A DNA stretch of 34,543 nucleotides from contig JADGNO010000248.1 in the NCBI GenBank assembly GCA_017883405.1, forward strand, positions 1-34,543. The letters run 5' to 3'. Source of the stretch: Occallatibacter sp. Its GTDB lineage: Bacteria; Acidobacteriota; Terriglobia; Terriglobales; Acidobacteriaceae. The translations under genes were made by a program, and so were the position numbers. Positions within the stretch are counted from its first letter, which is position 1. Each line of letters starts with the position of its first letter. The notes beneath the pieces are model-generated. The model saw only the letters and a program-made list of their open reading frames with translations, was not told the DNA's origin and searched no databases. Shown one piece after another: positions 5,307-25,388 of this stretch.

Positions 5307-5341
5307 CTTGGTGCGCACTTCTCCGCGCAAAACCAGCGACG

Positions 5342-7994: not shown

Positions 7995-8074
7995 CTATCC
8001 TCTGAAGCCGGAACGAGAAATGCGTCATCGCGCTCTTCCTCTGCGATTAGAAAACCCGAGCCAAAGTGATGCCA

Positions 8075-8140
8075 TGCTATCCTTTCCTTGCCCGTGCATG
8101 TGCCGCAGCTTCCTAACTTCCTCTGCGATCGAGCCCAAGT
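8075..8140 (+). promoter_or_regulatory. Shared leader element, copy 2 (extended -10 plus conserved leader)
   Basis: Starts TGCTATCCT and ends GAGCCCAAGT, like the copy at 5342-5408. If the TGnTAT motif is a true -10, transcription begins near 8090. That argues against translation from the TTG at 8088 and for the GTG at 8139. Confidence 0.45.
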
Positions 8141-9765: not shown

Positions 9766-9777
9766 AATAGAAAGTAC

Positions 9778-9854
9778 GGGCGAGTAGCTCAACTGGATAG
9801 AGCACCGGCCTTCTAAGCCGGGGGTTGTGGGTTCAAGCCCCGCCTCGCCTACCA
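9778..9854 (+). tRNA. tRNA-Arg (anticodon TCT)
   Basis: A full cloverleaf can be drawn: 7-bp acceptor stem (GGGCGAG with CTCGCCT), 4-bp D stem (GCTC/GAGC), 5-bp anticodon stem (CCGGC/GCCGG) with loop CTTCTAA, 5-base variable loop, and T stem GTGGG/CCCGC with loop TTCAAGC. The anticodon TCT is at 9812-9814 and reads AGA. Discriminator A and an encoded CCA follow. A TAAAAT -10-like box overlaps the stop codon of the preceding gene. Confidence 0.97.
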
Positions 9855-9931
9855 CCCCTCTGAAGTCCTCCCGCGTCGGAAAACTCCCGTGTATCACGAC
9901 CGTATCGAACTGGTGGCTTCACCATTACCGT

Positions 9932-12631
9932 TTAGTGCACAACGGACTGAATGACATACGGCGTATCGTGTTCAAGATCGGGATAGATCTTGCCTGTGCC
10001 ATGTCCATCCACAATTTCCACATAGTACATCAAGTCCCATTGCGCCGTGATGAACGCTCCAGGAATGCTTGCGCTGTAGATACCGCTGGTTCCTTCTTCG
10101 GTCATCGGCAGCGTCTCGTAGTCTTCCTTCTGATTCACATGCCGATAGCGAAGGCGGATCCAGCGAACACCCGCCGGCGCGGTCACTTTGGCGCGCACCT
10201 TAAAGTCAACACTTACGGGAGCGCCGCTTGAAGACCCCGGAATGAGAGCGACAACGGGTGCCACGGCATTCACATCCGCGGGAGGCAAAACGGCCTTTGC
10301 GCCGGGCTTTGACTGGGCTGCTTGCCGCTCTTCGACGAGTTCAGCGAATTCCTTTTCCAATGCCGGTAGTTCGTCCTTCCAGTGGTGAGGGAATCCCCGC
10401 AGGCTCGTCCCAAAATACATGTTGTCAATGTATTGATCGCCCGCAGTCTTGACGATTTCGCGCCATGCCTCGACCGCTTTGCGTTGGTATTCAACTGCCT
10501 GGTCAAATGCCGGCAGGCTTCCTGATAATTTGTAGAGGTTGTAGGCAACGGCTCCGAGTTGCAGCGCGGCATGATATCGGGCAAGTCCCGCCAGGATTCG
10601 CGCATCGGTGAGTGTTGCTTTCAACTCCTTGCTGGGAGTTCCGTGCGAGGCCTGTTCTGCCGCTGTCGCCTCGCGAAGAATTCCCTCAGAGGTCTGCGAA
10701 AACCAACGGCTGATATCCTCCGGGCGCTGCATGGCCGTGTCGCCACCGGCAAGAATGCGCTTGGCTTCATCGCGCACATTTTCAAATTGCGCAATGTCGC
10801 TGCCTTCTTCACGCGCCGCGTAAATGGGCAGACTGCCAATGTGCATCATCTCAGTCCAGCCCATTGTGGTAGGGAACATAGAGTACGGAATGCTTGCAGC
10901 AACAACTCGCGGGAGCACGCGGCTGGAGAGTTCGAGCGCGCGCATTGCATGCGGGCCCGCGTCGGGGCCAAATCTTTGCACGTACTCTTGCTCCCACACG
11001 TCCGTTGGCGTATCGGGATTGTAAGCGAGCCGCCCCATGACTCGATAAAAAGCCCAGTAGCGCTCAAACTCGTAGTCGAAGTACTTGTAACGGTCGTTCA
11101 GGAAATTGCGCGGCGGATCGTCCGGCGGATCGCTCAACATTTTGGTCGCTTCCATTTCAGTGAAGGCGAATCCGTGGCCATCGTACAGCCGGGCACTTTG
11201 CGCAATGCGACGCGCATAATCCGGATCGGACCATTCAAGCAGTCGCTGCGTACCGCCATTCCAGAGTGACCAATTCACCCAGTACGTCTTCGGGTATTCC
11301 AGCAGATCCGCGTAACTGTGGCGTGAATTGCCCTGGTCCTGTCTATTGATGTGCGTCGGGTGATAGGGAAGTCCCATCTGCTCCATCCATATCTTTGTAT
11401 CGATATGTACATGAACGCCCTGTGCCTGCGCGTCGCGAATAACGGATTTAGCCAGGCCCTTGGCACGAAGTTCAAGTTCAATCTCCGGTCGGCGCGTGCT
11501 GTAGAAGTGAAAAATGTCGTGCCAGAATCCATCGATTTCCGAGTCGAAGAGGCCGGACTCATTGTGCATACGAAATTGCGTTTCTTTGATCTCAGGAAAA
11601 AGTGAATAGAATTTATCGAGCGCGGCAACAGTGTAAGGCACCAGGTTGTCAGCGTTCAAACCCCAGACCAACCCAGGCGTGGGATGTGTTCCGTCCGATG
11701 CCCATTCAATCTTCCCATCCTGTCCTGCGCCGCGCGCACCGCGATAAATGTGCTCCCAGATGCCTGGCTTTATACGTATGCCGCGTTCGCCAGCCAGTCG
11801 AATCATGGTCCGGAATGAGTCGAAGTTCTGCTTCTGCTGTTCGGGCGTCAGGCCCACGACTTTTACGTCAGGAAATCCGTCGACATTGAAGAAGTAAGGA
11901 TAGAGCGGAGCCATGTAGCCGCCATCTTCATAGCCGAAAGTCAGCACCAGTTCGTTGATGCGATCTTCGGCGAGCATGTCGAAATAGCGCTCCCAGTAAT
12001 GTGGATCGTGCAGATGGCTTTCAAAATATGCGCGGTTCATTGTAAAGATAACAACGCCGCGATCACGGAGAAACGGTCTCTCATCCGTGCTGCGCGCAAA
12101 TGTAAATGGATCGCTGCCTGGTTTTGTCCACGAGACGCGCTGCGCAAGATCGAGTGCGGCATACATCAGCCCAGCTCCATCACCGCCGCACAATACAATC
12201 GCCGGCTTCTTCTGGTAGCTCGTGCCCACGCGAACCGCAAGAGATTCAGCGCCGCTGGGCGATGCCTCATTTCCGAGTGCGGTGGCGGCGGGACCATTGC
12301 CGCCGGAGATTCCTGCAAGAACCACCGCGTCGGCATTGCTGACATCGGCGGCGCTCTCAGAGACGGTAATTCCTCGCGCTCGCAACGTGTCTTCCAATTT
12401 TGAAACACCGTGCCGAGCAGTCGCGGAATTCCCAGCATCGCTGAGCACAACAATCTTGTGAATCGATCCGGCGCTCTTTGTTGTTTGAGCTTTTGCAAAT
12501 TGAATTGGCGGCATGAAGCACAGCCAAAGCAATGCCACGATCCATTTCGCGGCATTCACCGCGCGCGGCTTTGTCCCGGATTTAACTTGCAGGCGGATGT
12601 CGAGTTTCCTGAGCTTAGAGGAAATAATCAA
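9932..12631 (-). CDS. Putative exported glycoside hydrolase, TIM-barrel type
   Basis: An 899-aa secreted protein. A signal peptide lies at about residues 26-49 (WIVALLWLCFMPP, cleavage AKA-Q). Residues ~55-170 form an alpha/beta domain of the kind preceding the barrel in GH20/GH67 enzymes, ending in GLMYAALDLAQR. The central region (~185-640) has TIM-barrel features: RDRGVV, YFDMLAEDRINELVLTFG, GIRIKPGIWEH, MHNESGLF and WVNWSLWNGG, with several Glu/Asp that could be catalytic. A helical segment (~640-780) and a terminal beta-sandwich domain (~790-899, RYRHVNQ) follow. I could not fix a CAZy family, and the substrate is unknown. The start is TTG with GGAG 8 bases upstream. The fragment at 1-745 is a paralogue. 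It follows the TAXI gene but is separated from it by a terminator. Confidence 0.7.
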   Translation of the reverse strand: MIISSKLRKLDIRLQVKSGTKPRAVNAAKWIVALLWLCFMPPIQFAKAQTTKSAGSIHKIVVLSDAGNSATARHGVSKLEDTLRARGITVSESAADVSNADAVVLAGISGGNGPAATALGNEASPSGAESLAVRVGTSYQKKPAIVLCGGDGAGLMYAALDLAQRVSWTKPGSDPFTFARSTDERPFLRDRGVVIFTMNRAYFESHLHDPHYWERYFDMLAEDRINELVLTFGYEDGGYMAPLYPYFFNVDGFPDVKVVGLTPEQQKQNFDSFRTMIRLAGERGIRIKPGIWEHIYRGARGAGQDGKIEWASDGTHPTPGLVWGLNADNLVPYTVAALDKFYSLFPEIKETQFRMHNESGLFDSEIDGFWHDIFHFYSTRRPEIELELRAKGLAKSVIRDAQAQGVHVHIDTKIWMEQMGLPYHPTHINRQDQGNSRHSYADLLEYPKTYWVNWSLWNGGTQRLLEWSDPDYARRIAQSARLYDGHGFAFTEMEATKMLSDPPDDPPRNFLNDRYKYFDYEFERYWAFYRVMGRLAYNPDTPTDVWEQEYVQRFGPDAGPHAMRALELSSRVLPRVVAASIPYSMFPTTMGWTEMMHIGSLPIYAAREEGSDIAQFENVRDEAKRILAGGDTAMQRPEDISRWFSQTSEGILREATAAEQASHGTPSKELKATLTDARILAGLARYHAALQLGAVAYNLYKLSGSLPAFDQAVEYQRKAVEAWREIVKTAGDQYIDNMYFGTSLRGFPHHWKDELPALEKEFAELVEERQAAQSKPGAKAVLPPADVNAVAPVVALIPGSSSGAPVSVDFKVRAKVTAPAGVRWIRLRYRHVNQKEDYETLPMTEEGTSGIYSASIPGAFITAQWDLMYYVEIVDGHGTGKIYPDLEHDTPYVIQSVVH

Positions 12632-12736
12632 GGGGGTTTCTCCACTGGCTAACCAGATTACACGGTCCCGGGCACCCCGCGCTTCAAGGTTTTGTGGGGG
12701 CAGTTAAGTGTGCGCCTGCCAAGAAGAACCTTCTGC

Positions 12737-12781
12737 AAAAAACGAGGAGCGAGGAAGCCAGATTGGCGGTCTCCTCGCTCG
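12737..12781 (-). terminator. Intrinsic terminator after the TAXI gene
   Basis: Read on the minus strand, a GC-rich hairpin with alternative registers (CGAGGAG/CTCCTCG outside, or GAGCGAGGA/TCCTCGCTC inside, with a GCC/GGC inner stem) runs directly into six T residues. It would end the esterase-TAXI transcription unit before the glycosidase gene. Confidence 0.7.
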
Positions 12782-12832
12782 ATTCAGCGCTTGCTGATTT
12801 GACGTTCCAGCGCATAAATTTGCGCAGCCGGG

Positions 12833-13888
12833 TTATTTCATATAGCCCATCTGTTTGTAATAGCGCGCGGCACCTGGATGCAGCGGCACGTCGCAAACTT
12901 TCCAAACGTTGTGCACGTTGTACGAAAAGTTTTGGTTGGTCCACTGCAACTCGTCCTGGTGCTCGTCCATTGCCTTCGCCACGTCGTATGCAAAGCTGTC
13001 GGGAACATCGTTGCGCGTATACACCACGGTTCCATTGCGCACGATCGTGGGAATCTCGCGCTCAACGCCGCGCAGCATCCCATTGGGAATATAGCCGCGA
13101 TACATCAGCGGATCTTTCGTGAACGTCGCAATCACCGGCTCAGGAATATCAAGATAGTTCAGGTCGAATTTCTGGCTCACTTCGTACAGCACATTCCACT
13201 CCGGCGCTGACGAAAGCGCACCGCCATGCATGATGATGTCAAAGTTAGTGCGATCTTCAAGGGAGCTTCCTACATATCCACCGGCGGCGGTGATGGACTC
13301 AACCGATAGCCCGTAATAGGCAAGAATCTCTTTCACCATCCGGTCGTTCGGCGACGCGTTGATCCTTACGGGCCACTTCTTTTCCTTCACCTGCGACAGG
13401 TCTGTAATGCCCGTCTCAGCCTTTGCGGCGACAACGAACCACCACGGCGATTGTATATTCGCAATCAGGCGAAGATTGTCCATCGGCTTGTCTTTCGCAT
13501 ACGCACCTCGACCGTGATAGGCGTCGCAAAGAAACTGTTCCGCCGTGGAGCCAAAGTCTACCGGACCAAGCCCAGGCGCGTTCGGCGGCGCCATGGCAAC
13601 CGATACGGCCGGATCCTTCTTATACGAAGGCGGAACCTCGGCATGTGCAACAATGCGCGTTGATGCAGCCGCATTGCAGTTGAAGCATGTTTGCACATCG
13701 TAACCGTAGTACTTCATGGCCTTCTTTACTACTTGCCCCATGGCGCCCCATGGGCACAGCTTGCAGGCTCCGCCGAAGACCGGCTTCTTGATCGCGATTC
13801 CCGTGTTGTAAACTTCGCCGCTCTGCGCGCCAATCAGGCCAATGCTTGCCAGCAATAGTACGGCTACGCCAAGAGATTTCTTCGACAT
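12833..13888 (-). CDS. TAXI-type periplasmic solute-binding protein with two CxxC motifs
   Basis: A 351-aa exported binding protein. The signal peptide is at residues 1-21 (VAVLLLASIGLIGA-Q). The body resembles the TAXI/NMT1 superfamily used by TRAP transporters: GxxxGA-like WGAMGQVV, a DLSQVKEKKWPVRI hinge strand, a GGYVGSSLEDRTNFDIIM ligand-domain region and a C-terminal HPGAARYYKQMGY. Unusual for such proteins, the N-terminal lobe carries CKLC (42-45) and CFNC (68-71). No CxxCH is present, so these suggest disulfides or metal binding rather than haem. No TRAP membrane subunits (DctQ/DctM-like) are in the window. GAGGTAAC precedes the ATG. It is last in the esterase cluster, 96 bp after esterase 1, and might capture a product released by these exported hydrolases (inference). 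Confidence 0.75.
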   Translation of the reverse strand: MSKKSLGVAVLLLASIGLIGAQSGEVYNTGIAIKKPVFGGACKLCPWGAMGQVVKKAMKYYGYDVQTCFNCNAAASTRIVAHAEVPPSYKKDPAVSVAMAPPNAPGLGPVDFGSTAEQFLCDAYHGRGAYAKDKPMDNLRLIANIQSPWWFVVAAKAETGITDLSQVKEKKWPVRINASPNDRMVKEILAYYGLSVESITAAGGYVGSSLEDRTNFDIIMHGGALSSAPEWNVLYEVSQKFDLNYLDIPEPVIATFTKDPLMYRGYIPNGMLRGVEREIPTIVRNGTVVYTRNDVPDSFAYDVAKAMDEHQDELQWTNQNFSYNVHNVWKVCDVPLHPGAARYYKQMGYMK

Positions 13889-13930
13889 CGTGTTACCTCG
13901 TTATTTACAAAGAATTTATTCGTTGAACAA

Positions 13931-13962
13931 ACAACTGCCTGCGCCAGGGCGCAAGCAGTTGT
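13931..13962 (-). terminator. Hairpin between esterase 1 and the TAXI gene (attenuator-like)
   Basis: A 13-bp stem around a 6-base loop. The single imperfect pair is a G-U wobble only in the minus-strand transcript. A T-rich but interrupted stretch follows. It could partially terminate or stabilise the esterase mRNA and set a different level for the TAXI gene. Confidence 0.5.
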
Positions 13963-13984
13963 CCCTTGTAGGTTGCGGGTATGA

Positions 13985-15676
13985 TCAGCTCTCGATCAGT
14001 TTCCGCACTTCGCCTTCTGGATCATTCACCACGCGGCATTCCTTGTCGAACACCATCGTCTGGCCGTGATCTGGTTCGGCAGCGGGCCAAGCCAGGCCTG
14101 GCTGACTTGGATCTCCCGTGCGTGCAAAGTTCGACCACGCGGTCGCCATCTTTTTTGCAATCGCCTGCGCCTCCGGCGTGTTGCCGGTTCCTTGCTCGCA
14201 GCGCTTTGTGTTGTCAAAGCAGAAAGCGAGCTCGGCCGTGTGCCAGGCGCCCGCACCTTCCAGCATGGGCGACTGCCAGCTGAAGTAATACTGATAAGCC
14301 TTCGCGCCACCTTGCTCATGCTTCAGTTTCGCCATCCGTTGCACCTTGTTGCGCGCGCTTAGGCCGCCAACGCCGAATGAAAGAGTCTTGATGCTCTTTT
14401 CCGGATGCACCTTCTTCATTGCGGCAATCAGCTCAGTCGCCTTCCCGTCGCCGATCACTTTGGCAAGACTGGCATGCCACTCCGCCTCGGTGGGATTGGA
14501 TAGGTAGCGCATGGATTCTTCGCTGACGGAGCCGAACAGGATTGGCACATCCTTCGCCGTCTCTGGCGCAACATCTTCAAACGACTTGCACACGACATTC
14601 TTTCCGTCAATGCACGGCGTCCATCCGACCATCGGAACACTGCCCGGCCCAGATGGCGGCCCGAACACCAGGTCATGTCGCGGAGGATTCATCTTCGCGG
14701 CCACCGTTCGTCCCGCCGCGATCATTCTGGCCCATTCCATCTTCTGCAATGCGGCCATGTCCCCAGCCCCGACGCCTAGTTCCTTGATCACTCGCGTTGA
14801 GAATTCTTTCTGTTGCTCTGCAGTAGGAATCTGTCCGCCGCCTCCCGATTGTGCCGAAGCGCGATGGATCAGTCCTTTCGCAGCAGGCATGCCCAGCAAC
14901 GTGGTCACTTTCGATCCACCGCCGGACTGCCCATAGATCATTACCTTGTTCGGGTCGCCGCCGAAATTGGCGATGTTCTCCTGCACCCATCGCAGAGCGA
15001 AAACCAAATCGGTGAAGCTCAGGTTCCGCGAGTCCTCGTAAGCCGAGCCACCGATTTCAGAAACATCCAGGAAGCCAAGTGCGTTCAGCCGGTGGTTGAC
15101 TGAGACCTGCACCACGTCGTGATGACGCGCCATCTGTGCGCCTTCATGCGAGGGCAGTTCGTACGACGATCCAAACTCGAACCCGCCGCCGTGTATGTAA
15201 AACATCACCGCACGGCTGCCGCTCAGGCTCGGCGTCCAGATGTTCAGCTTCAGCATGTCCTCGCTTTGCCAGCCGTCATCCCAGTCTTGTAGAAACGTTT
15301 GCTCATTGCCCGTCCAGTCATGCAGATGTTGTGGGCAATTAGCTCCGTACACCAGGGCAGGGAATTCATCTTTCCACGGGGCCGGCACCTTTGGCGGAAG
15401 AAAGCGATTTTCGCCGCCGGTGTTCTGTCCGTACGGAATTCCCTTGAATGTGAAAACATCGCCATCCAAGTAGCCCCGCACAGGGCCGTACTGCGTCTTC
15501 GCGACGGCGCTGCGCGGCGTGCTGCATCCTCCAGGTTGCTGGTGTGCAGCCGTTTTGATGCTGTCTGAAGCGCGTGCGGGCCGGCCCAGCGCAATGCCCA
15601 TGCCCGCGGTTGCCGACATCAAAAGTGCTTCACGACGATTGAGAATGATGCCATCTTTCGAACTTGCCTTCGACAT
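13985..15676 (-). CDS. Carboxylesterase type B, Tat-type signal (esterase 1, subtype A)
   Basis: A 563-aa exported carboxylesterase/lipase of the type-B (pNB-esterase/cholinesterase) family, hydrolysing carboxylic esters. NRREALLMSA (twin Arg 14-15) and the hydrophobic stretch to ARA indicate Tat export. Visible landmarks are FKGIPYGQ (78-84), the oxyanion motif HGGG (162-165), SVNHRLNALGF, and the nucleophile elbow GQSGG with Ser251 (most relatives have GESAGG). The probable acid is Glu387 in GSVSEE and the probable catalytic His is His479 in AWHTAEL. The triad is thus complete. GGAGAGG precedes the ATG. It is the last of five tandem paralogues on this strand and is subtype A by its GQSGGGSKVT and MNPP signatures. 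Here SEES replaces the SEEG of its neighbours. The substrate is unknown. Confidence 0.9.
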   Translation of the reverse strand: MSKASSKDGIILNRREALLMSATAGMGIALGRPARASDSIKTAAHQQPGGCSTPRSAVAKTQYGPVRGYLDGDVFTFKGIPYGQNTGGENRFLPPKVPAPWKDEFPALVYGANCPQHLHDWTGNEQTFLQDWDDGWQSEDMLKLNIWTPSLSGSRAVMFYIHGGGFEFGSSYELPSHEGAQMARHHDVVQVSVNHRLNALGFLDVSEIGGSAYEDSRNLSFTDLVFALRWVQENIANFGGDPNKVMIYGQSGGGSKVTTLLGMPAAKGLIHRASAQSGGGGQIPTAEQQKEFSTRVIKELGVGAGDMAALQKMEWARMIAAGRTVAAKMNPPRHDLVFGPPSGPGSVPMVGWTPCIDGKNVVCKSFEDVAPETAKDVPILFGSVSEESMRYLSNPTEAEWHASLAKVIGDGKATELIAAMKKVHPEKSIKTLSFGVGGLSARNKVQRMAKLKHEQGGAKAYQYYFSWQSPMLEGAGAWHTAELAFCFDNTKRCEQGTGNTPEAQAIAKKMATAWSNFARTGDPSQPGLAWPAAEPDHGQTMVFDKECRVVNDPEGEVRKLIES

Positions 15677-15730
15677 TTCCTCTCCTTACTTTTGCTGCAG
15701 GTCGTTATTGCGCTCGTGCGCAGCCGTTAG

Positions 15731-17425
15731 TTAGCTCAGAATGATCTTGCGAATTTCACTTTCCGGATCGTCGACAACACGGCAATCGTTATCCCACACC
15801 ATTGTCTGGTTATGCTCGGGGTCAGACGGCGTCCACGTCAGTCCCGGCTGACTGGGATTTCCCGTGCGTGCAAAGTTTGCCCAGGCCGTGGCCATCTTTT
15901 TCGCCAGTGCCTGCGCCTCTGGCGTGTTGCCGGTGCCTTGCTCGCAGCGCTTGGTGTTGTCGAAACAGAATGCGAGATCGGCTGTATGCCACGCGCCGGC
16001 ATCCTCCAGCATGGGCGACTGCCAGCTAAAGTAATACGTGTACACCGGCGCTGCCTTCAGATCATGTTTCAACTTTGCTATGTGAACGACGCTGTTGCGA
16101 ATGGAAACTGCGTTCAGAATGCCGCCGCCGCCGCACATGTAAGAGAGCGTGCGTATGCTCTTTTCCGGATGCGCCTTTCTCAATGCATCGGCCAGCACTT
16201 TACCTCTGTCTTCGCCATAAGCCCTGGCAAGATTGGCACGCCATTGAGCCTCAGTCGGGCGCGAGCGCATACTGTTGCCCTCTTCGCTAACCGAGCCGAT
16301 GATCAATGGCACGTCCTTTGAAATCTCCGGTGCCGACGTTTGGAATGTGTTCTCAGTAATCACGCGGCCGTCCACTGTAGGCATCCAGAAACGCGCCGGT
16401 GGTCCCGGCATTGCCCCAAACGGACCAGGCCGCGGCGGCATCTTGCCTTGCGCTGCATTGGTTGCGGCATTCAGCGAGGCCCAGTCAAGCTTTTGCAGTG
16501 CACCAATATCATTGGCCCCGATGCCAAGCTGCTTCACCAGCATCCGCGCAAATTCTTTCGCTTCGTCTTTGTCGCCCGCAAAGCTACCGCCAGACTGAAT
16601 CGCCGCGCGTTGGAACAATCCTTTAGCCGAAGGCATTCCCATTAGGGTTGCTACTTTGCCGCCGCCGCCGGATTGGCCATAGATCATTACTTTGTTCGGA
16701 TCGCCGCCGAAGTTGGCGATGTTTTCCTGCACCCACTTGAGCGCAGCCACAAGATCCGACATGCCAACACTGACGGAGTCTTCATATCCCGCGCCGCCAA
16801 TTTCCGAAACATCCATAAATCCAAGCGAGTTCAAGCGGTGGTTCACTGAAATCTGCACCACGTCATGGTGCCTGGCCATCTGCGCGCCTTCATGCGAGGG
16901 CAATTCATACGAGGAGCCAAACTGGAATCCGCCGCCGTGAATGTAGAACATCACAGCGCGGCTACCGCTGAGGCTCGGCGTCCAGATGTTCAGCTTCAGC
17001 ATGTCCTCGCTCTGCCAGCCGTCGTCCCAGTCCTGCAGAAATGTTTGCTCATTACCTGTCCAGTCATGGAGAGTCTGCGGGCAGTTAGCGCCATAAACCA
17101 GCGCGGGATACTCGTCCTTCCACGGCACGGGTGGCTTGGCAGGCAGCCAGCGATTTTCGCCGCCCGTGTTCTGTCCGTAAGGAACGCCTTTGAACGTGAA
17201 CACTCCACCATCGAGGTAGCCGCGAACTTTGCCATATCGCGTATTGGCAATCGCGCTGCGCGGTGTCGAACAGGTTCCCGGCTCTTGCTGGTGCACGCCG
17301 GTCTTGATGCTGTCTGACGCTGCGGCCTTGCGCCCCAACGCGATTCCCAGGCCTGCTGTTGCCGACATCAAAAGTGCTTCACGACGATTGAGAACAATTC
17401 CGCTATCCGATTTCGCTTTCGACAT
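15731..17425 (-). CDS. Carboxylesterase type B, Tat-type signal (esterase 2, subtype B)
   Basis: A 564-aa paralogue of its neighbours with the same Tat-like NRREALLMSATAG leader. HGGG is at 163-166 and Ser252 lies in GQSGGGGKVAT. GSVSEEG supplies the acid and AWHTADL the His, so the protein should be active. It groups with esterase 4 rather than with the adjacent esterases 1 and 3: both share GVPYGQ, FQFGSS, GKVATLMGMPSAKGLF, a Pro/Gly-rich loop (MPPRPG...) ending in FW.PT, and EISKDVPL. A short insertion (YMCGGGGILNAVS) precedes the late RNSV segment, unlike all others. GGAGAGGGA lies just before the ATG. The gap to the next gene is 54 bp. Confidence 0.9.
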   Translation of the reverse strand: MSKAKSDSGIVLNRREALLMSATAGLGIALGRKAAASDSIKTGVHQQEPGTCSTPRSAIANTRYGKVRGYLDGGVFTFKGVPYGQNTGGENRWLPAKPPVPWKDEYPALVYGANCPQTLHDWTGNEQTFLQDWDDGWQSEDMLKLNIWTPSLSGSRAVMFYIHGGGFQFGSSYELPSHEGAQMARHHDVVQISVNHRLNSLGFMDVSEIGGAGYEDSVSVGMSDLVAALKWVQENIANFGGDPNKVMIYGQSGGGGKVATLMGMPSAKGLFQRAAIQSGGSFAGDKDEAKEFARMLVKQLGIGANDIGALQKLDWASLNAATNAAQGKMPPRPGPFGAMPGPPARFWMPTVDGRVITENTFQTSAPEISKDVPLIIGSVSEEGNSMRSRPTEAQWRANLARAYGEDRGKVLADALRKAHPEKSIRTLSYMCGGGGILNAVSIRNSVVHIAKLKHDLKAAPVYTYYFSWQSPMLEDAGAWHTADLAFCFDNTKRCEQGTGNTPEAQALAKKMATAWANFARTGNPSQPGLTWTPSDPEHNQTMVWDNDCRVVDDPESEIRKIILS

Positions 17426-17479
17426 TCCCTCTCCTTATTTGTTACCCGGTTGAATTCGCGCAAACGCATTTTAATCGCG

Positions 17480-19168
17480 TTAGCTCAGCAGGATCTTGCG
17501 CACATCGTTTTCAGGATCGTTGACCATGCGGCATTCATTGTCGAACACCATCGTCTGCCCATGCTCGGGATCAGCCGGCGTCCACGCCAGGCCGGGCTGG
17601 CTCGGATCGCCGGTCTTGGCAAAGTTCGACCAGGCCGTGGCCATCTTCTTTGCCAGCGCCTGCGCCTCCGGTGTGTTGCCGGTTCCTTGCTCGCAACGTT
17701 TAGTGTTGTCAAAGCAGAAGGCAAGCTCAGCCGTATGCCACGCGCCCGCATCCTCCAGCATGGGAGATTGCCACGTAAAGTAATACTGATAGGCGGGTGC
17801 AGCATGCAGACCATGTTTCAATTTCGCCATGCGCAGCACGTTGTTGCGCGCCGTCATTCCATTCACGCCGTATGACAAAGTGCGAATGCTCTTCTCCGGA
17901 TGCGCCTTCTTCATAGCCGCTATCAGCGCGGTCGCCTTCTCGCTTCCAATCTGTTTTGTGAGCGTGGCGTGCCACTCATCCTCAGTGGGACGCGAGGCCA
18001 TCTTGTTGCCTTCTTCGCTCACTGAGCCAATCAGCATTGGCACGTCTTTCGATACCTCCGGCCCTTCATCGAAGAACGGCCGCAGGCTTAGAATTTTTCC
18101 GTCCACCGAAGGCGAATAGCCAACGCGAGGCGATGATGGAGGCGAAGACCCCGGTCCACTTGGCCCTTGCACGGGCGGATTCATCTTGTCTGCGACAGCA
18201 TTGCCCGCGTCGTTCAGCTTGGCCCAATCCATCTTCTGCAGTGCGGCAATGTCGTTCGGCGCAATTCCAAGAGCCTTGATAACCTGCCGTGCAAATTCGC
18301 GCGACTGCTCGGCAGTGGGCAAGTTGGCGCCACCGCCGGATTGAACCGACGCACGATGAATCAACCCTTTGGCCAATGGCATGCCCAACAGCGTTGTCAC
18401 CTTAGATCCGCCGCCAGACTGCCCGTAGATCATCACCCGGTCCGGATCGCCGCCAAAATTCGCAATGTTTTCCTGCACCCATTTGAGCGCGGCAACCAGA
18501 TCGGTCATGCCTACGTTTCTTGAGTCTTCGTAGGCCGATCCGCCCACCTCTGATACATCGAAGAATCCCAGCACGTTCAGCCGGTGATTCACTGAGACCT
18601 GCACCACGTCGTGATGACGCGCCATCTGCGCGCCCTCGTGCGAAGGCAATTCATACGACGAACCGAAATCGAATCGGCCTCCGTGGAAATACACCATCAC
18701 GGCGCGTTTACCGCTCAGGCCCGGTGTCCATAGGTTCAGCTTCAGCATGTCTTCGCTGATGTAGCCATCGTCCCAGTCCTGCAGGAACGTTTGCTCAATG
18801 GCGGTAAAGTCGTGCAGCTTCTGCATGCAGTTCGCGCCGTAAATCAGGGCAGGGTACTCGTCTTTCCATGGCGCGGGTGCTTTCGCAGGCAGCCAGCGAT
18901 TTTCGCCGCCCGTGTTCTGCCCATAAGGAATGCCCTTAAAGGTAAACACGCCTCCATCCACAAAACCGCGCACCTTGCCGTACCGCGTGTTGGCGACGGC
19001 GGTGCGCGGCGTTGTGCAACTGCCCGGTTCCTGATGCGCTGAAGTTTTCCGGTTGTCCATGGCGCGCGCGGACCTTCCAAAAGCAAGGCCCACGCCCGCC
19101 GTTGCCGAAAGCAGCAGCGCCTCACGACGATTCAGAACGATGTCTTTCTCAGCATTTGTATTCGACAT
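17480..19168 (-). CDS. Carboxylesterase type B with HGGR oxyanion-hole variant (esterase 3, subtype A)
   Basis: A 562-aa paralogue with Tat-like NRREALLLSATAG. The triad residues are kept: Ser251 in GQSGGGSKVT, the Glu of GSVSEEG and the His of AWHTAEL. The oxyanion-hole motif reads HGGR (162-165) instead of HGGG; the codon is CGA at 18674-18676, one base from GGA. This column corresponds to Gly117 of human butyrylcholinesterase and Gly137 of blowfly esterase E3, where substitutions alter ester and organophosphate chemistry. Other positions also depart from the four siblings: GANCM for GANCP, DFTA for DWTG, and GYISED for G(W)xSED. It may be specialised or losing normal esterase activity. GAGGGAATAAC precedes the ATG. 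The gap to esterase 2 is 54 bp. Confidence 0.9.
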   Translation of the reverse strand: MSNTNAEKDIVLNRREALLLSATAGVGLAFGRSARAMDNRKTSAHQEPGSCTTPRTAVANTRYGKVRGFVDGGVFTFKGIPYGQNTGGENRWLPAKAPAPWKDEYPALIYGANCMQKLHDFTAIEQTFLQDWDDGYISEDMLKLNLWTPGLSGKRAVMVYFHGGRFDFGSSYELPSHEGAQMARHHDVVQVSVNHRLNVLGFFDVSEVGGSAYEDSRNVGMTDLVAALKWVQENIANFGGDPDRVMIYGQSGGGSKVTTLLGMPLAKGLIHRASVQSGGGANLPTAEQSREFARQVIKALGIAPNDIAALQKMDWAKLNDAGNAVADKMNPPVQGPSGPGSSPPSSPRVGYSPSVDGKILSLRPFFDEGPEVSKDVPMLIGSVSEEGNKMASRPTEDEWHATLTKQIGSEKATALIAAMKKAHPEKSIRTLSYGVNGMTARNNVLRMAKLKHGLHAAPAYQYYFTWQSPMLEDAGAWHTAELAFCFDNTKRCEQGTGNTPEAQALAKKMATAWSNFAKTGDPSQPGLAWTPADPEHGQTMVFDNECRMVNDPENDVRKILLS

Positions 19169-19222
19169 GTTATTCCCTCATCTGTTCTTTCCGTTTGTGA
19201 TTTGCTGCTGCTGTTTGTTCCC

Positions 19223-20899
19223 TTAGCTCAGAATTATCTTTCGCACTTCGCCTTCGGGATCGTCGACCATGCGGCATTCGTTGTCCCACACCATGGTCTG
19301 GTTGCGCTCCGGATCAGACGGCGTCCACGTCAGTCCCGGCTGGCTCGGATTGCCGGTGCGCGCAAAGTTCGCCCACGCGTTCGCCATCTTCTTTGCCAGT
19401 GCCTGCGCCTCAGGCGTGTTGCCGGTGCCCTGCTCGCAGCGCTTGGTGTTGTCAAAGCAGAAGGCCAGTTCAGAAGTATGCCAAGCACCCGCATCCTCCA
19501 GCATGGGCGACTGCCAGGTAAAGTAGTACGTGTAAACCGGCGCAGCCTTCAGATCGTGCTTCAGCTTTGCCATGCGAGCTACGTTGTTGCGTCCACCCAC
19601 GCCGCCAACACCGTACGACAGAGTGCGAATGCTCTTTTCCGGATGCGCCTTCTTCATGGCGTCTGCAAGCGCGTTTGCCTTGGCTTCTCCGTACTGCCTG
19701 GCCATGGTCGCGCGCCATTCCGCTTCGGTCGGCCGCGAGAGCATTCTGTTGCCCTCTTCGCTCACTGAGCCAACCATCAGAGGCACATCCTTTGAGATTT
19801 CGGGAGCGCCGTCCTGCATCGATCTCACGTTGATGACCTTGCTATCCAGCGTCGGTCCCCAGAAGCGGCGCGGCGGACCGGGCCGATTCGGCATACCCGG
19901 CAAGCCCGCGCGCGGCGGCATCTTGGCCTGCGCAGCATCAGCGGCAGTATTCAGCGTTTGCCAATCCACCTTCTGCAGCCCTGCAATGTCAGTCACGCCA
20001 AGCACCTTCACCAGTTGCCGCGTAAATTCCTTCGCTTCTTCCTTGGGTGCTGCGCTTCCGCCGCCCGACTGAATTGCGGCACGATGGAACAAGCCCTTCG
20101 CTGAAGGCATACCCATCAACGTCGCAACCTTGCCGCCACCACCGGACTGGCCATAGATCATCACGTTATCCGGGTCGCCGCCGAAGTTGGCGATGTTGTC
20201 ATGAACCCACTGCAACGCGGCCACCAGATCGGTCATGCCCACGTTCACTGAGTCCGCATAGGCATCACCACCAATTTCCGAAACATCCAGGAATCCCAGT
20301 CCATTCAACCGGTGATTCACTGAGATCTGCACTATGTCGTGATGACGCGCCATCTGCGCGCCTTCATGCGAGGGCAGTTCATATGAGGAACCAAACTGGA
20401 ATCCGCCACCATGGATGTAGAACATGACGGCCCGCTTGCCGGTCAGGCTCGGCGTCCAGATGTTCAGCTTCAACATGTCTTCGCTCTGCCAGCCGTCATC
20501 CCAGTCCTGGATGAAAGTCTGCTCATTGCCCGTCCAGTCGTGCAGAGTCTGCGGGCAATTCGCACCATAAACAAGAGCCGGATACTCATCCTTCCAAGGC
20601 ACGGGAGGCTTCGCCGGAAGCCAGCGATTTTCGCCGCCCGTGTTCTGTCCGTAGGGAACGCCCTTGAAGGTCAACACGCCTCCATCCAGGTACCCGCGAA
20701 TTTTTCCATACTGCGTGTTGGCAACTGCACTGCGTGGAGTGGAACAAGTTCCCGGCTCCTGCTGGTGCACTCCGGTCTTAATGCTGTCTGAAGCGTGAAC
20801 CTTTTTGCCGATGGCCAGGCCCATGCCCACGCTCGCCGAAAGGAACATGGCCTCGCGACGATTCAACAGCATGCGGTTTTCAGAATCTGACTTTGACAT
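19223..20899 (-). CDS. Carboxylesterase type B, Tat-type signal (esterase 4, subtype B)
   Basis: A 558-aa paralogue. The frame stays open upstream to 21004, but that would overlap esterase 5. I place the start at the ATG at 20899 because GGGAGA lies just before it and the protein then begins MSKSDSEN...LLNRREAMFLSAS, like the siblings. HGGG, GQSGGGGKVAT (Ser252), GSVSEEG and AWHTSEL are present, so the triad is intact. It is closest to esterase 2 (shared QQEPGTCSTPRSA, FQFGSS, GKVATLMGMPSAKGLF and a Pro/Gly-rich loop ending FWGPT). The twin-arginine stretch is followed by a more polar GKKVHASDS than in the others. The gap to esterase 3 is 54 bp. Confidence 0.9.
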   Translation of the reverse strand: MSKSDSENRMLLNRREAMFLSASVGMGLAIGKKVHASDSIKTGVHQQEPGTCSTPRSAVANTQYGKIRGYLDGGVLTFKGVPYGQNTGGENRWLPAKPPVPWKDEYPALVYGANCPQTLHDWTGNEQTFIQDWDDGWQSEDMLKLNIWTPSLTGKRAVMFYIHGGGFQFGSSYELPSHEGAQMARHHDIVQISVNHRLNGLGFLDVSEIGGDAYADSVNVGMTDLVAALQWVHDNIANFGGDPDNVMIYGQSGGGGKVATLMGMPSAKGLFHRAAIQSGGGSAAPKEEAKEFTRQLVKVLGVTDIAGLQKVDWQTLNTAADAAQAKMPPRAGLPGMPNRPGPPRRFWGPTLDSKVINVRSMQDGAPEISKDVPLMVGSVSEEGNRMLSRPTEAEWRATMARQYGEAKANALADAMKKAHPEKSIRTLSYGVGGVGGRNNVARMAKLKHDLKAAPVYTYYFTWQSPMLEDAGAWHTSELAFCFDNTKRCEQGTGNTPEAQALAKKMANAWANFARTGNPSQPGLTWTPSDPERNQTMVWDNECRMVDDPEGEVRKIILS

Positions 20900-20949
20900 T
20901 GCTTCTCCCTTTATTTGTTGTCTTGCTTGTTTTGACATGCTGCTGTGCA

Positions 20950-22635
20950 TCAACCCAGCAGAATCTTCCGTGCTTCGCCTTCCGGATCGTCCACCATTCG
21001 GCATTCGTTATCGAAGACCATTGTTTGGCAGCGGGCCGGATCTGCCGGTTCCCAGGTCAGTCCAGGCTGATTCGGATTGCCTGTCTTGGCAAAGTTCGAC
21101 CATGCCGTCGCCATCTTTCTCGCCACTGCCTGCGCTTCATGCGTATTGCCTGTACCCTGCTCGCAACGTTTGGTGTTGTCAAAGCAGAATGCAAGTTCGG
21201 CGGTATGCCACGCGCCTGAGTCTTCCAGCATCGGAGACTGCCAGGTAAAGTGATACGCGTAGACCGGCGCACCCTTCTGCTCGTGTTTCAGCTTCACAAT
21301 GCGCTGTACGCTGTTGCGCATGGCTACGCCACCCACGCCGTACGACAACGTGCGAATGCTCTTCTCCGGATGCGCCTTCTTCATGGCGGCAATCAGCGCG
21401 GTCGCTTTGGCATCGCCATATTGGCGAGCAAGAGTCGCGTGCCACTCAGCCTCGGTCGGCTTTGACAAGTAGCGCATGCCTTCTTCACTGACCGAACCAA
21501 CCAGCAACGGCACATTCTTTGAAAGGTCCGACACAGCATCGGCAAACGAGCGGCACATCAGCACGCGTCCGTCCACCGTTGCGGTCCAGTCGGCGCCGCG
21601 TCTCGGCACTCCACCCGGTCCAGGCACTGTGCCGGGATTGAGCTTGATAGCCGCTGCATTGCTGGCCGCTGTCAGCTTGGACCACTCCACCTTCTGCAGT
21701 GCGCCAACATCATTGGGCCCAAACCCCAGCTCAATCATCATCTGCTTTGCCAGCTCTCGTGACTGGAACGGGCGGTCAGCAGGTGGATAGTGAATGCCGC
21801 CGCCAGATTGCGCTGAGGCGCGATGGAACAAGCCTGCTGCCGAAGGCATCGCCATCAGGCAAGTCACCTTTGAGCCACCGCCGGACTGTCCATAAATCAT
21901 CACGCGGTCCGGGTCGCCGCCAAAGTTGGCAATGTTTTCATGAACCCATCGCAGCGACGCCACCAGGTCCGTCAGTCCTACGTTCGCCGATTCGGCATAC
22001 GGTTCTCCGCCCACTTCAGACAAATCGAGGAAGCCCAGCACATTCAGCCGGTGATTCACTGAAACCTGCACAACATCGTGGTGCCGCGCCATTTGCGCGC
22101 CTTCATGCGAGGGCAACTCATACGCTGATCCGAATTCAAACCCGCCGCCGTGAAAATAGACCATCACCGCGCGCTTGCCGGTCAGGCTCGGCGTCCACAC
22201 GTTCAGCTTCAGCATGTCCTCGCTCAGCCAGCCGTCATCCCAGTCCTGCAGAAACGTCTGCTCAATGCCGGTCCAGTCGTGCAGGCGCTGTGGGCAATTC
22301 GCACCATAAACCAGTGCAGGGTATTCGTCTTGCCACGGCACAGGAGGCTTCGCCGGCAGCCAGCGATTTTCTCCGGCCGTAGTCTGTCCATAGGGAATCC
22401 CCTTGAAGGTGAAAACCCCTCCATCCACAAATCCGCGCACCGGCCCATACTGGGTTTTTGCCACCGCTGTCCGCGGCGTAGAGCAGCCTCCAGCTTCCTG
22501 GTGAGCAGCGGTCTTGGTGTTATCCATGGCACGCGCCGGACTGGCCAGCGCAGCTCCCAATCCTGCCGTCGCCGAAAGCATTAATGCCTCACGACGATTG
22601 AAAACTATACCTTTTTGAGAATTCGATTGCGGCAC
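20950..22635 (-). CDS. Carboxylesterase type B, Tat-type signal (esterase 5, first of the array, subtype A)
   Basis: A 561-aa paralogue and the promoter-proximal member of the array. The frame extends to 22719, but the GTG at 22635 has GGAGGAG 5-6 bases upstream and yields a leader of sibling length (MPQSNSQKGIVFNRREALMLSATAG), so I choose it. HGGG, GQSGGGSKVT, GSVSEEG and AWHTAEL are all present. It differs from the others at PYGQTTAGEN (normally NTGGEN) and has a longer segment after QSGGG (HYPPADRPFQSRE). Signatures place it with esterases 1 and 3. Downstream, esterase 4 starts after a 50-bp gap. A putative promoter and a LacI-type operator lie upstream. Confidence 0.9.
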   Translation of the reverse strand: MPQSNSQKGIVFNRREALMLSATAGLGAALASPARAMDNTKTAAHQEAGGCSTPRTAVAKTQYGPVRGFVDGGVFTFKGIPYGQTTAGENRWLPAKPPVPWQDEYPALVYGANCPQRLHDWTGIEQTFLQDWDDGWLSEDMLKLNVWTPSLTGKRAVMVYFHGGGFEFGSAYELPSHEGAQMARHHDVVQVSVNHRLNVLGFLDLSEVGGEPYAESANVGLTDLVASLRWVHENIANFGGDPDRVMIYGQSGGGSKVTCLMAMPSAAGLFHRASAQSGGGIHYPPADRPFQSRELAKQMMIELGFGPNDVGALQKVEWSKLTAASNAAAIKLNPGTVPGPGGVPRRGADWTATVDGRVLMCRSFADAVSDLSKNVPLLVGSVSEEGMRYLSKPTEAEWHATLARQYGDAKATALIAAMKKAHPEKSIRTLSYGVGGVAMRNSVQRIVKLKHEQKGAPVYAYHFTWQSPMLEDSGAWHTAELAFCFDNTKRCEQGTGNTHEAQAVARKMATAWSNFAKTGNPNQPGLTWEPADPARCQTMVFDNECRMVDDPEGEARKILLG

Positions 22636-22690
22636 TGCTTCTCCTCCGTGCTTTTCTCTGCCACTAACTGATGGGATTACGTTGACCCGG

Positions 22691-22719
22691 CTGATATTGA
22701 AGTGGTCTGCCCCGATCAA
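22691..22719 (-). promoter_or_regulatory. Putative promoter of the esterase array
   Basis: On the minus strand, TTGATC (22719-22714), 17 bases, then TATCAG (22696-22691), about 55 bases before the GTG start of esterase 5. The boxes are imperfect but the spacing is optimal. Confidence 0.35.
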
Positions 22720-22752
22720 TACTCTTGGGAATCGGCGCGTTTGTTGCTTCTG

Positions 22753-22764
22753 GTAAACGTTTGC
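22753..22764. promoter_or_regulatory. LacI-family operator GTAAACGTTTGC
   Basis: An AAACGTTT palindrome with a central CG, the hallmark of LacI/GalR-family operators (compare TGTAAACGTTTACA-type sites). It sits between the LacI-family gene and esterase 5, about 118 bp upstream of the esterase start and upstream of the proposed -35, so repression might need looping or a different promoter. Confidence 0.5.
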
Positions 22765-23076
22765 TCAATGACACTGAACCTACGCGACGCAAAGCTGCAC
22801 AACCTCGGAACGAGGGCATCCTACGCTGGCGGATTCTTAGCGAACAAGTTGCATTTTTCGAGATCAGCAATCGAATAGTTCGATACGAATTGGCACCGTC
22901 GCAGGGAGCCGATTGAGCGCGGAAATCCACAGTATTTACGCGTCTTTTGAGCCATTCTGCGCGTCGAAAAAGTTAAGGCGGAGTGGGCCCCGGGCACAAA
23001 ATAATCTATTGCGCAAATTCTGCGCGACGCGAAGTTTCTCAATCGCTGATTTTTCTCGTGTAGTTGCCGGGCGCGT

Positions 23077-24093
23077 CTACTTGCGCATTGAGGATTCGCG
23101 GGCAACCAGCGACGGCTCCAGAACGATCGATCGTGGTCGGGTTGGCGGCGTCTTTTCCAGCAGCGTCGATATCATTCTCGCAGCGCGCTCGCCGATCCCG
23201 CCGGCATGCTGATCCACACTTGAAAGAGGAACGCGCAGCTTGCTGCTGTAGTGGAAATTGCCGCTGCCCACAATGGCGATATCTTTCGGAATCTTCAATC
23301 CCGCATCGAAGGCCTGCACCATCGCGCCCACGGCAATCGTGTCGTTAAAGCAGAACACGGCATCCGGCCGGGGCTTCAGAGCCAGCATGGCGCTCATCGC
23401 CTTCTTCCCGCGCGTCTCGCCGTCAGAGTCGGCTGCCTCACCAGATTCAACTACGTAGCTGCCAGGCACTTTCAATCCCTGCTTCTTCAAAGCATCCAGG
23501 TAGCCCTCGGCACGGCGGTTTCCACCGTTAGTGTGCGGTCCGCGAATATGCGCGATTCGCTTGTAGCCTTGTGCGATCAGGTGCTCAGTCGCCAGCTTGC
23601 CGATTGCGTAATCGTTCACGCCCACAAAATTGGCAGTACAATCCTCAAAGCTCCGATCGAGCAGAATCAACGGCACCCCTGCTTCGCCAATCTTCTTCAG
23701 GCCGTCGAAATTTTTCTGGCAAGATGCCACCACAAAGCAGTCAAGCCGATGCGCAAGCATGTGCTCGATCTCATCCTGCTCAAGGCTTGGATCGCTCTCT
23801 GATGAGGACACCAGCAGAAAATAATTTTTCTTGCGCAGGCTGGCAGCCAGCGATTTGGCAATCTCTGAAAAGAAGGGATGAATCAGGTCGGGGACCACCA
23901 GCCCGACCAGCGAACTGCGGCCCGTAACCAGGCTGCGTGCGGCCAGGTTGGGGCGATAGTTGTAGTGCTTCACCCGCTCCAGAATTCTTGCACGCGTCTC
24001 CTTGGCAACGTCCGGCCGATCGCCGAGCGCCTTCGACACCGTAACGATGGAGACGCCAAGTTCCTCGGCAATATCCTTTAATCGGACGACCAT
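23077..24093 (-). CDS. LacI-family transcriptional regulator
   Basis: A 338-aa DNA-binding regulator. Residues 3-22 (RLKDIAEELGVSIVTVSKAL) are a canonical LacI helix-turn-helix, followed by the hinge helix YRPNLAARSL. The periplasmic-binding-protein-like effector domain runs from GLVVPDL (about 63) to the end, with FCFNDTIAVGAM and DIAIVGSG typical of the second lobe. I chose the ATG at 24093 because the domain starts immediately after it; the frame is open further upstream but without family similarity. No ribosome binding site is seen, and a TATACA-like -10 lies only about 10 bases upstream, so a leaderless mRNA is possible. The likely target is the esterase array directly downstream on the same strand; the effector (a sugar or ester product) is unknown. 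Confidence 0.92.
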   Translation of the reverse strand: MVVRLKDIAEELGVSIVTVSKALGDRPDVAKETRARILERVKHYNYRPNLAARSLVTGRSSLVGLVVPDLIHPFFSEIAKSLAASLRKKNYFLLVSSSESDPSLEQDEIEHMLAHRLDCFVVASCQKNFDGLKKIGEAGVPLILLDRSFEDCTANFVGVNDYAIGKLATEHLIAQGYKRIAHIRGPHTNGGNRRAEGYLDALKKQGLKVPGSYVVESGEAADSDGETRGKKAMSAMLALKPRPDAVFCFNDTIAVGAMVQAFDAGLKIPKDIAIVGSGNFHYSSKLRVPLSSVDQHAGGIGERAARMISTLLEKTPPTRPRSIVLEPSLVARESSMRK

Positions 24094-24256
24094 ATGGAGA
24101 GTGTATACAACGGGTTCGAGTTTCAGTCCCTTACTCAACCTTGCCCAAAAAACCGTGGAAAGGCCGATGACAACGAACTTTGATAAAGTCAGCTTCATCG
24201 GCGCGCCGCACAAGGCTCTCGCCGATGGCAGCTACCCATCCCCCGAGGAGGTCCTA

Positions 24257-24808
24257 ATGATGTCTCAATGCTCGTCCAAATCCAAGGCCGCGTTGGCAGC
24301 GATGCTCCTGATCTCAGCCGCAATGGCGGCGCAAGACAGAACCCCTCCAGCGCAGGCGAACCCTACTCCCGGATGCTCGGCCAAGCCAGAACAGATTGAA
24401 GCAAACAGAAAACTGGTATTGGATTTCTTCCGGCTCTCGGGAGAAGCAAGAATCGCACTGCTTGACCCTGCCTACAAGCAGCACAATCCCGTCGCGGTTC
24501 GACGTGCACAGCAGGAGCACCTGTCTGATTACGAAGAAGCGAGGAATGGGTTTCTCGCACAGGCCACCGGCCCCGTACATGGCCTCGGACTTGGCCCGAC
24601 GCCCCCCGGGAACCGTTTTGAAATTGTTACTGCGGAGTGTGACATAGTAACTGTCGTCCATCAGAACTTCAGGCACGATCCTACCGGCCAAGAAAAATTC
24701 TACGAGGCGTTCACCTTCGATACATTTCGAGTAAAGAGAGGCAAGCTCGTGGAACACTGGGATGGGGCCTCCATCAGCGCCCCCGAACCGACCCCGGCTA
24801 AGCCCTAA
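24257..24808 (+). CDS. Exported SnoaL-like (NTF2-fold) protein
   Basis: 183 aa. The start is the ATG 6 bases after GAGGAG (24245-24250); the open frame further upstream overlaps the regulator gene and is not used. Residues 1-24 form a signal peptide (AALAAMLLISAAMAA-Q). The rest matches the SnoaL-like aldol-condensation-type family: KLVLDFFRLSG, Y.QHNPVA, then DTFRVKRGKLVEHWDG near the C-terminus. NTF2-fold proteins bind small hydrophobic molecules in a cone-shaped pocket, and this subgroup has no defined reaction. It is divergent from the LacI-family gene, so both may be controlled from the 24094-24256 spacer, which includes the 8-bp palindrome TGTATACA (24102-24109). Confidence 0.8.
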   Translation: MMSQCSSKSKAALAAMLLISAAMAAQDRTPPAQANPTPGCSAKPEQIEANRKLVLDFFRLSGEARIALLDPAYKQHNPVAVRRAQQEHLSDYEEARNGFLAQATGPVHGLGLGPTPPGNRFEIVTAECDIVTVVHQNFRHDPTGQEKFYEAFTFDTFRVKRGKLVEHWDGASISAPEPTPAKP

Positions 24809-24863
24809 TAGTCGAAGAATTTCATCTTCAGTGAACTATTATGCTGTAACCAGAGGACTGCCA

Positions 24864-25316
24864 ATGAACCGTGCGGAATACGACAAGATGCTTGAGGTTG
24901 CCCTCGACGAAGCGCGCCATGGCCGTGTCGAAGGCGGCATCCCCATCGGTGCAGCCATCTTTACGCGTGCGGGCGAACTCGTCAGCCGCGGTCACAACCG
25001 CCGCGTACAGCAGGGCGATCCAAGCATTCACGGCGAAACGGATGCATTTCGGCGCGCTGGCCGCCAGCGCAGTTATCGCGACCTCATCATGGTCACCACG
25101 CTCGCCCCCTGCTGGTATTGCAGCGGACTCGTGCGCCAGTTCAGGTTTGGCACCGTGGTCGTGGGCGAAAGCCGCACCTTTGCCGGCGGCCTCGACTGGC
25201 TTCGCGCCAATGGCGTTGAAGTCATCGACCTCGATAATCAGGACTGCCGTCAATTGCTCGAAGGCTACATCGCCGAGCACCCTGAAATCTGGAATGAAGA
25301 CATCGGAGAAGAATAG
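24864..25316 (+). CDS. Cytosine deaminase, yeast (zinc, CDA-fold) type
   Basis: A 150-aa cytoplasmic zinc deaminase that probably converts cytosine to uracil and ammonia. Zinc and catalytic motifs are HGE (His56, Glu58) and PCWYC (Cys83, Cys86). Similarity to the small yeast cytosine deaminase, from memory, extends beyond these: EGG(I/V)PIG near residue 25, RGHN.R at 42-47, GE...F around 101, and the C-terminus PEIWNEDIGE matching the yeast ending W.EDIGE. This distinguishes it from tRNA adenosine deaminases and from the large amidohydrolase CodA. The start is the ATG at 24864 with AGAGGA upstream; 55 bp separate it from the SnoaL-like gene. Salvage of nucleobases fits the purine-degradation operon a few kb away. 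Other nucleobase substrates cannot be excluded. Confidence 0.85.
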   Translation: MNRAEYDKMLEVALDEARHGRVEGGIPIGAAIFTRAGELVSRGHNRRVQQGDPSIHGETDAFRRAGRQRSYRDLIMVTTLAPCWYCSGLVRQFRFGTVVVGESRTFAGGLDWLRANGVEVIDLDNQDCRQLLEGYIAEHPEIWNEDIGEE

Positions 25317-25333
25317 TACGTGCTAAGAGACAT

Positions 25334-25366
25334 AAAAGGGCGGCTCCTTACGGAGCCGCCCTTTTT
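25334..25366. terminator. Bidirectional intrinsic terminator between convergent genes
   Basis: A perfect 14-bp stem (25334-25347 with 25352-25365), loop TTAC, with an A-run on one side and a T-run on the other. It ends the deaminase gene and, read in reverse, the second TonB-dependent receptor gene. Confidence 0.92.
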
Positions 25367-25388
25367 ATCATTGCGAGTGAACCGGGCA

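Follow-up and report, generated by a model that had tools for sequence, protein, structure and literature searches.

Type-B carboxylesterases of family PF00135, such as Est55 and Est50 of Geobacillus, the p-nitrobenzyl (pNB) esterase of Bacillus and the carboxylesterase of Thermobifida fusca, usually carry the nucleophile elbow GESAG, which the family profile does not require. Acidobacteria are abundant in soil, and their enzymes for plant polymers are poorly known. Here we describe five genes of this family, E1 to E5, that lie head to tail in the soil acidobacterium Occallatibacter sp., on contig JADGNO010000248.1 of assembly GCA_017883405.1; the window analysed is the whole stretch of 34,543 nucleotides (nt). 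The five encoded proteins resemble the known enzymes in full-length match, fold and the motif Ser, Glu and His, but they have GQSGG in place of GESAG, a leader of the twin-arginine translocation (Tat) type and 29-33% identity to the solved bacterial structures, and they stand as five paralogues together. A functional analogy is offered by the polysaccharide utilisation clusters of Gram-negative bacteria, in which a LacI-family regulator, a glycosidase-like gene and esterases also lie side by side with a barrel gene near. The present locus differs from these in its five esterases of one family, in a TAXI protein for which no permease was found and in a barrel gene that has its own terminator-like hairpin; no SusD family was found among the 19 scanned open reading frames (ORFs) of the window. 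In another acidobacterium, Candidatus Solibacter usitatus Ellin6076, a group of type-B carboxylesterase paralogues has been described, some of them with signs of positive selection (PMC3174227); the passages of that paper on these paralogues mention no five-gene array.

With modest confidence, we favour the reading that the locus is an operon of exported enzymes that de-esterify plant-wall polysaccharide, with five versions of one esterase clade from at least three old sublineages. Gene order suggests that E5-E4-E3-E2-E1, the TAXI gene and a gene for an enzyme resembling glycoside hydrolase (GH) family 138 are co-transcribed, and the adjacent LacI-family regulator probably controls them. The esterases would strip ester decorations (acetyl, methyl or feruloyl) from a polysaccharide rich in arabinose and uronic acid, and the de-esterified polymer would then be open to the GH138-like enzyme and to the GH51 and GH3 enzymes encoded near a second esterase group of the same genome. 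Having several copies would extend the set of esters attacked, through a presumed division of labour.

The array and its esterases

The five genes are intact and occupy 13985-22635 of the minus strand, as first described (Table 1). The spacers are 50, 54, 54 and 54 nt in 5' to 3' order, followed by 96 nt between E1 and the TAXI gene. PF00135 is matched along the full length of each protein with 266.6-279.9 bits (cut-off 27), and the leader NRREA(L/M) and the motifs GQSGG, SEE and WHT are present in all five, while no NCBIfam family scored above its cut-off for any of them. The lengths of 558-564 amino acids (aa), the gaps, the Tat leaders and the GQSGG motif given in the preliminary description are thus all borne out, and the LacI-family regulator and the TAXI gene that it placed on the flanks were both recovered by profile match. 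A predicted model of E3 (mean predicted local distance difference test score, pLDDT, 86) had solved bacterial carboxylesterases as its best structural matches. By the agreement of fold and motif residues E1-E5 are type-B carboxylesterases, and from the leaders they are presumably secreted. Sequence upstream of E5 was considered as a gene remnant, but it gave only short esterase matches (longest exact match 15 nt, to E3, E 0.010), which were judged to be chance.

Table 1. Features of the locus and their positions in the window
Feature	Position	Strand	Remarks
899-aa ORF, distant GH138-like glycoside hydrolase (predicted)	9932-12631	-	start not certain; downstream of TAXI
TAXI-family (NMT1_3) solute-binding-like protein	12833-13888	-	351 aa; signal-like N-terminus by eye
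Strong RNA hairpin, E1-TAXI spacer	13931-13962	-	fold of 13885-13990: z -4.3; none of 200 shuffles folds as well
E1	13985-15676	-	563 aa; sublineage A; exceptions at W92, L318, Y433
E2	15731-17425	-	564 aa; sublineage B
E3	17480-19168	-	562 aa; sublineage A; Arg165 and Met115 exceptions
E4	19223-20899	-	558 aa; sublineage B
E5	20950-22635	-	561 aa, GTG start; first esterase of array; sublineage C
GTAAACGTTTGC palindrome	22753-22764		118 bp upstream of E5; weak
LacI-family transcriptional regulator	23077-24213	-	441 bp upstream of E5, same strand; PF00356 (helix-turn-helix) and PF00532 (periplasmic-binding-like domain)
Outer-membrane beta-barrel gene	25389-29396	-	beyond LacI and a cytidine-deaminase-like plus-strand gene

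The array is unusual yet understandable, and its copy number stands out in the genus. At E<=1e-150 the clade was found in 20 of 80 genus genomes, 15 of which have one gene and four have two, as compared to six counted in this genome. At E<=1e-180 it was found in 31 of 249 order genomes (25 with one gene, five with two, this genome with at least five), and in the phylum in 11 of 396 genomes (nine with one, one with two, at least three here). Outside the array the genome has a second esterase group: contig C106 carries one complete gene and one fragment at a contig end, and contig C98 a further contig-end fragment; the two contigs are not joined in the assembly. One fragment covers residues 1-234 and the other 430-560, and the two could be parts of a single gene, for which reason the genome total is best given as at least seven clade genes. 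Where other genus genomes have two genes, these lie on different contigs in G026, G215 and G645 and at one locus in G035; the other adjacent or near pairs are those of L017 and L034, each a fragment and a gene, and of L001, which shows the G035 arrangement with the TAXI gene between. Three of 50 listed matches to plasmid records reached at least 60% identity, all from Novosphingobium, and the one record inspected has no annotation in the matching stretch. A word search of one open library returned no title or abstract start about the array or the clade.

To place the active-site residues we used an alignment of 82 clade members, 76 from other genomes and six from this one; 11 of the 93 gathered rows had been dropped (four outgroups, L006_503 and six fragments), and the fragments L076, L079 and L080 were never among the 93. 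The GQSGG elbow and the motif Ser, Glu and His, which we take to be the catalytic triad, are invariant in all 82. The elbow had been called unusual, and this stands for PF00135 in general but not within the clade. Outside it, several more distant relatives also have GQSGG, beside others with GFSAG, GYSGG, GCSGG, GFSGG or GESGG. The oxyanion hole reads HGGG in 81 members, including E1, E2, E4 and E5, and HGGRF in E3. The codon of Arg165 in E3 is CGA (18674-18676), compared with GGA or GGG in the other four copies, which is a single first-base change from GGA, and only reads could exclude a consensus error at this site.

The array offers five natural variants that can be compared side by side, with the greatest divergence at residues 288-387. 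An alternative that we find unlikely, although it is the strongest of those considered, is that the copies serve for dosage, or that they are in part redundant and in decay, without divided substrates. It gains from the observation that none of the copies keeps every residue on which the 76 members of other genomes all agree (P115M and G165R in E3; W92F, L318M and Y433F in E1; N218S in E2; L403M in E4; P353A in E5), and that G165R hits the oxyanion hole and could inactivate E3. However, all five frames are intact with the motif Ser, Glu and His kept in each, and the amino-acid identity between copies (69-81%) is far above the identity at third codon positions (48-53%), as under long purifying selection. 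With still less credence, we consider that old, separately evolved esterases were placed in one operon in which the TAXI protein no longer serves TRAP transport but would partner or sense the released product in the periplasm, and in which the Arg of E3 would give an altered chemistry, for example on a carboxylate-bearing uronic ester.

Gene neighbourhoods and candidate substrate

The proposed role in de-esterification of plant-wall polysaccharide draws on the company that the clade keeps in other genomes. The relative set comprised 80 loci with the clade, 37 of them with full flanks, in a total of 1.35 Mb, and each neighbour cluster takes its name from the scan of one to three representatives. 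A GH51 cluster was present at 35 of the 80 loci and GH3 at 18, followed by PF00756 esterases (13), two GH43 clusters (10 and 7), GH9 (8), SASA (8) and GH10 (4); of the three representatives scanned for GH51, one went unmatched in Pfam at 1e-8 and was named through an NCBIfam match below its cut-off. At least one listed carbohydrate-active or carbohydrate-esterase cluster was seen at 55 of the 80 loci and at 32 of the 37 with full flanks. For GH51, which is the only cluster with a background count, 34 PF22848 matches in 11 genomes (~50 Mb) give ~0.7 per Mb, or ~1 expected in 1.35 Mb, and an upper bound of ~4.5 when all 167 first-look candidates are taken. A separate Pfam tally of 93 neighbour proteins listed GH51 and PF00756 most often, eight times each, then GH3 six times and GH115 and GH10 twice each. 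This is also visible in the genome itself, where the clade genes of contig C106 have two PF00756 esterases and three GH51-type genes as neighbours, and contig C98 has a GH3 gene and an OprB porin with the clade fragment. The three GH51-type arabinofuranosidase genes adjoining the second esterase group stand in a row (L111, 5855-12523).

Genes of GH51, GH3, GH43 and carbohydrate esterases are such frequent neighbours of the relatives that a role in removing esters from plant-wall polysaccharide is likely, and the earlier suggestion of exported esterases acting on an ester-decorated polymer gains support from these neighbourhoods. Feruloyl esters are found on arabinose side chains, and the company of GH51 arabinofuranosidases favours such esters as substrates, while the GH138-like gene points to uronic-acid chains and their methyl or acetyl esters. 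It is improbable, in our judgement, that the locus instead detoxifies or uses aromatic or xenobiotic esters. The closest solved structures do include polyurethane- and polyester-hydrolysing and p-nitrobenzyl esterases, but the bacterial ones share with E1-E5 only the low identity given above, a mere family resemblance, and the carbohydrate-active or carbohydrate-esterase clusters at 55 loci speak against it. With its GQSGG elbow, Tat-type leaders and nearby arabinofuranosidase and xylosidase-type genes, the clade is a good candidate for an uncharacterised group of carbohydrate esterases.

No Pfam family was matched at E 0.001 by the 899-aa ORF that follows the TAXI gene; in NCBIfam an alpha-galacturonidase family was hit weakly, with 38 bits where the cut-off is 1300. 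In a Foldseek comparison, the predicted model (mean pLDDT 71) had as top match the GH138 enzyme BP0997 (E 3e-27), which targets rhamnogalacturonan II of pectin, along most of its length, with GH115, GH84 and GH67 enzymes as lower fold matches. A 22-member profile found GH138 entries with a best E of 2.5e-17, beside one weak O-GlcNAcase hit (E 0.0057). Unlike these points of likeness, the catalytic Glu alignment is uncertain, with one invariant Glu placed one column off a Glu of BP0997 at the end of the aligned stretch, and with E361, which is changed in one PDB entry, outside that stretch. The ORF is best called a distant GH138-like glycosidase, with a predicted activity. Relatives of it were found in 30 of 200 order genomes including this one (window; L163-L192), and this genome has at least four at E<=1e-30.

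Several observations weigh against the operon as a plant-polysaccharide system. PF00135 enzymes are promiscuous. There is no GH51 or GH3 gene among the 19 scanned window ORFs, so that the plant-polysaccharide context is borrowed from relatives and from other contigs, and the GH138 likeness within the window is distant, at 13-14% identity in the fold alignment and with parts of the model at low confidence. None of the listed clusters was found at 25 of the 80 relative loci, some of which are short contigs, and the GH51 background is less sensitive than the cluster count, since of the three GH51-type genes on C106 it picks up one. As to expression, operator palindromes number five in the genome compared with three for a control reading, which is a weak signal, and neither promoter-like sites (3 vs 4.8 in shuffles) nor terminator-like sites (12 vs 14.4) are in excess. 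The draft genome itself consists of 340 contigs, with a completeness of 78% and an estimated contamination of 4.5%.

The TAXI gene product is similar to TRAP-TAXI solute-binding proteins (TIGR02122), as it passes the curated cut-off with 92.7 bits against 84.35 and matches TAXI structures by sequence. It differs from them in that its N-terminal ~100 residues, including the segment GACKLCPWG, lie outside the profile and structure matches, and in that no permease was found in the four carrier genomes. Searches for a TRAP permease with PF06808 (DctM) and TIGR02123 (fused) gave no match in this incomplete draft, and none in any of three TAXI-bearing relatives that are 93-100% complete. Because a DctM or fused TRAP permease is absent from these searches of four genomes, three of them at least 93% complete, a role in TRAP uptake is unlikely and the protein looks orphaned; the 'capture' step of the preliminary description, taken as transport, finds no support.

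Relatives of the TAXI protein at E<=1e-40 were found in four of 249 order genomes, this one included. Here and in G035 the gene adjoins clade esterases. In L006 it has a more distant esterase on one side and, on the other, a PF00756 gene followed by a clade esterase, and in L019 it is followed by a further PF00135 esterase, a GH10 gene and a clade esterase. It stands beside a GH43 gene in G004, and no such esterase was found beside the two TAXI relatives of G247. TAXI-family proteins with a CPWGA segment (in the window and in L153-L157) occur in genomes that gave no TRAP permease in these searches, and this raises the question of non-transport roles for such proteins. The arrangement LacI-esterase(n)-TAXI, which the preliminary description proposed to look for in related genomes, was found in full at none of the 80 relative loci, and what stood of it is partial: the esterase and TAXI genes are in proximity at three loci, and a LacI homologue (>60 bits) lies within the retrieved flanks at 10.

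Ancestry of the five copies

The phylogeny was inferred from a 54-row tree (LG+C20) that holds 48 of the 76 rows from other genomes and the six from this one. E2 and E4, the closest pair by protein identity (81%), fell into a 100/99 clade together with the genes L029, L045 and L059 of other genomes, and within it E2 lay closer to the genes from other genomes than to E4 (98/94). E1 and E3 were paired at 89/89. E5 stood apart, and in a wider quick tree it paired with a second-group fragment of its own genome (89 in the Shimodaira-Hasegawa-like approximate likelihood ratio test, SH-aLRT). Constraining E1-E5 to one clade cost 108 units of log-likelihood and was rejected by the approximately unbiased (AU) test (p-AU 8.6e-7), which rules out the copies as a lineage-specific tandem array, that is, one clade apart from the genes of other genomes. 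Judged from these trees, the array draws on at least three old sublineages that are older than this species, and their order from 5' to 3' is C-B-A-B-A.

We consider it very doubtful that one ancestral esterase was recently amplified here in local tandem and its copies then diverged, a scenario which in its simple form is rejected by the AU test, although the head-to-tail order, the near-equal gaps, the amino-acid identity among the copies, the closeness of E2 and E4, the pairing of E1 with E3 and a shared leader tract in E1 and E2 (see below) would all fit it. Neither the identity at third codon positions nor the spacers, which show no ungapped similarity past the ribosome-binding end, agree with such an origin, and the same holds for the clade that E2 and E4 share with other genomes, with E2 nearer to those genes, though E2 and E4 as sisters are not rejected (p-AU 0.056). 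In its simple form, the repeated local duplication put forward in the preliminary description is not supported by these results. Possibly, given that p value, the pairing of E1 with E3 and the order C-B-A-B-A, a two-gene B-A unit was duplicated once, long ago, within a cluster that was already of mixed type.

Exchange between the copies was also considered. Between E1 and E2 a tract over the leader holds 14 agreeing polymorphic sites, longer than in any of 1000 shuffles. The tract suggests conversion, and some exchange between copies has probably taken place. Pervasive gene conversion was rejected, as E1-E2 is the only one of ten pairs beyond all 1000 shuffles, and E3-E2 (0.033) and E3-E1 (0.051) fail the correction for ten comparisons.

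Regulator, RNA elements and flanking genes

The LacI-family gene had been proposed as the sensing part of the locus. Its position is in line with this, as is the palindrome GTAAACGTTTGC between it and E5, which we presume to be of the LacI-family operator type, but the evidence is weak. The pattern AAACGTTT occurs within 450 nt upstream of four of 85 clade genes, E5 being one of them, compared with 0.68 expected, and to this comes the genome-wide palindrome count given above. One operator scan took its pattern from the site itself, and the exact match there is thus no test. We keep GTAAACGTTTGC as a weak hint of an operator.

At the gathering score, Rfam gave only a transfer RNA in 9000-25500. 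The hairpin in the E1-TAXI spacer could be a partial terminator or a stabiliser of the mRNA, and it may set TAXI expression apart from that of the esterases. A 14-pair terminator-like hairpin lies at 25334-25365, directly after the barrel gene and before the LacI gene, and because of it the barrel gene is probably a separate transcript from the LacI gene and the array.

Further out, at 30238-34282, genes for an amino-acid-permease-type protein, uricase, OHCU decarboxylase and an FAD-binding dehydrogenase form an apparent purine-breakdown cluster. At the other end of the window (1606-9194, plus strand), genes for an outer-membrane barrel, a TPR protein, a multihaem-cytochrome-like protein and an alpha/beta hydrolase stand in a row.

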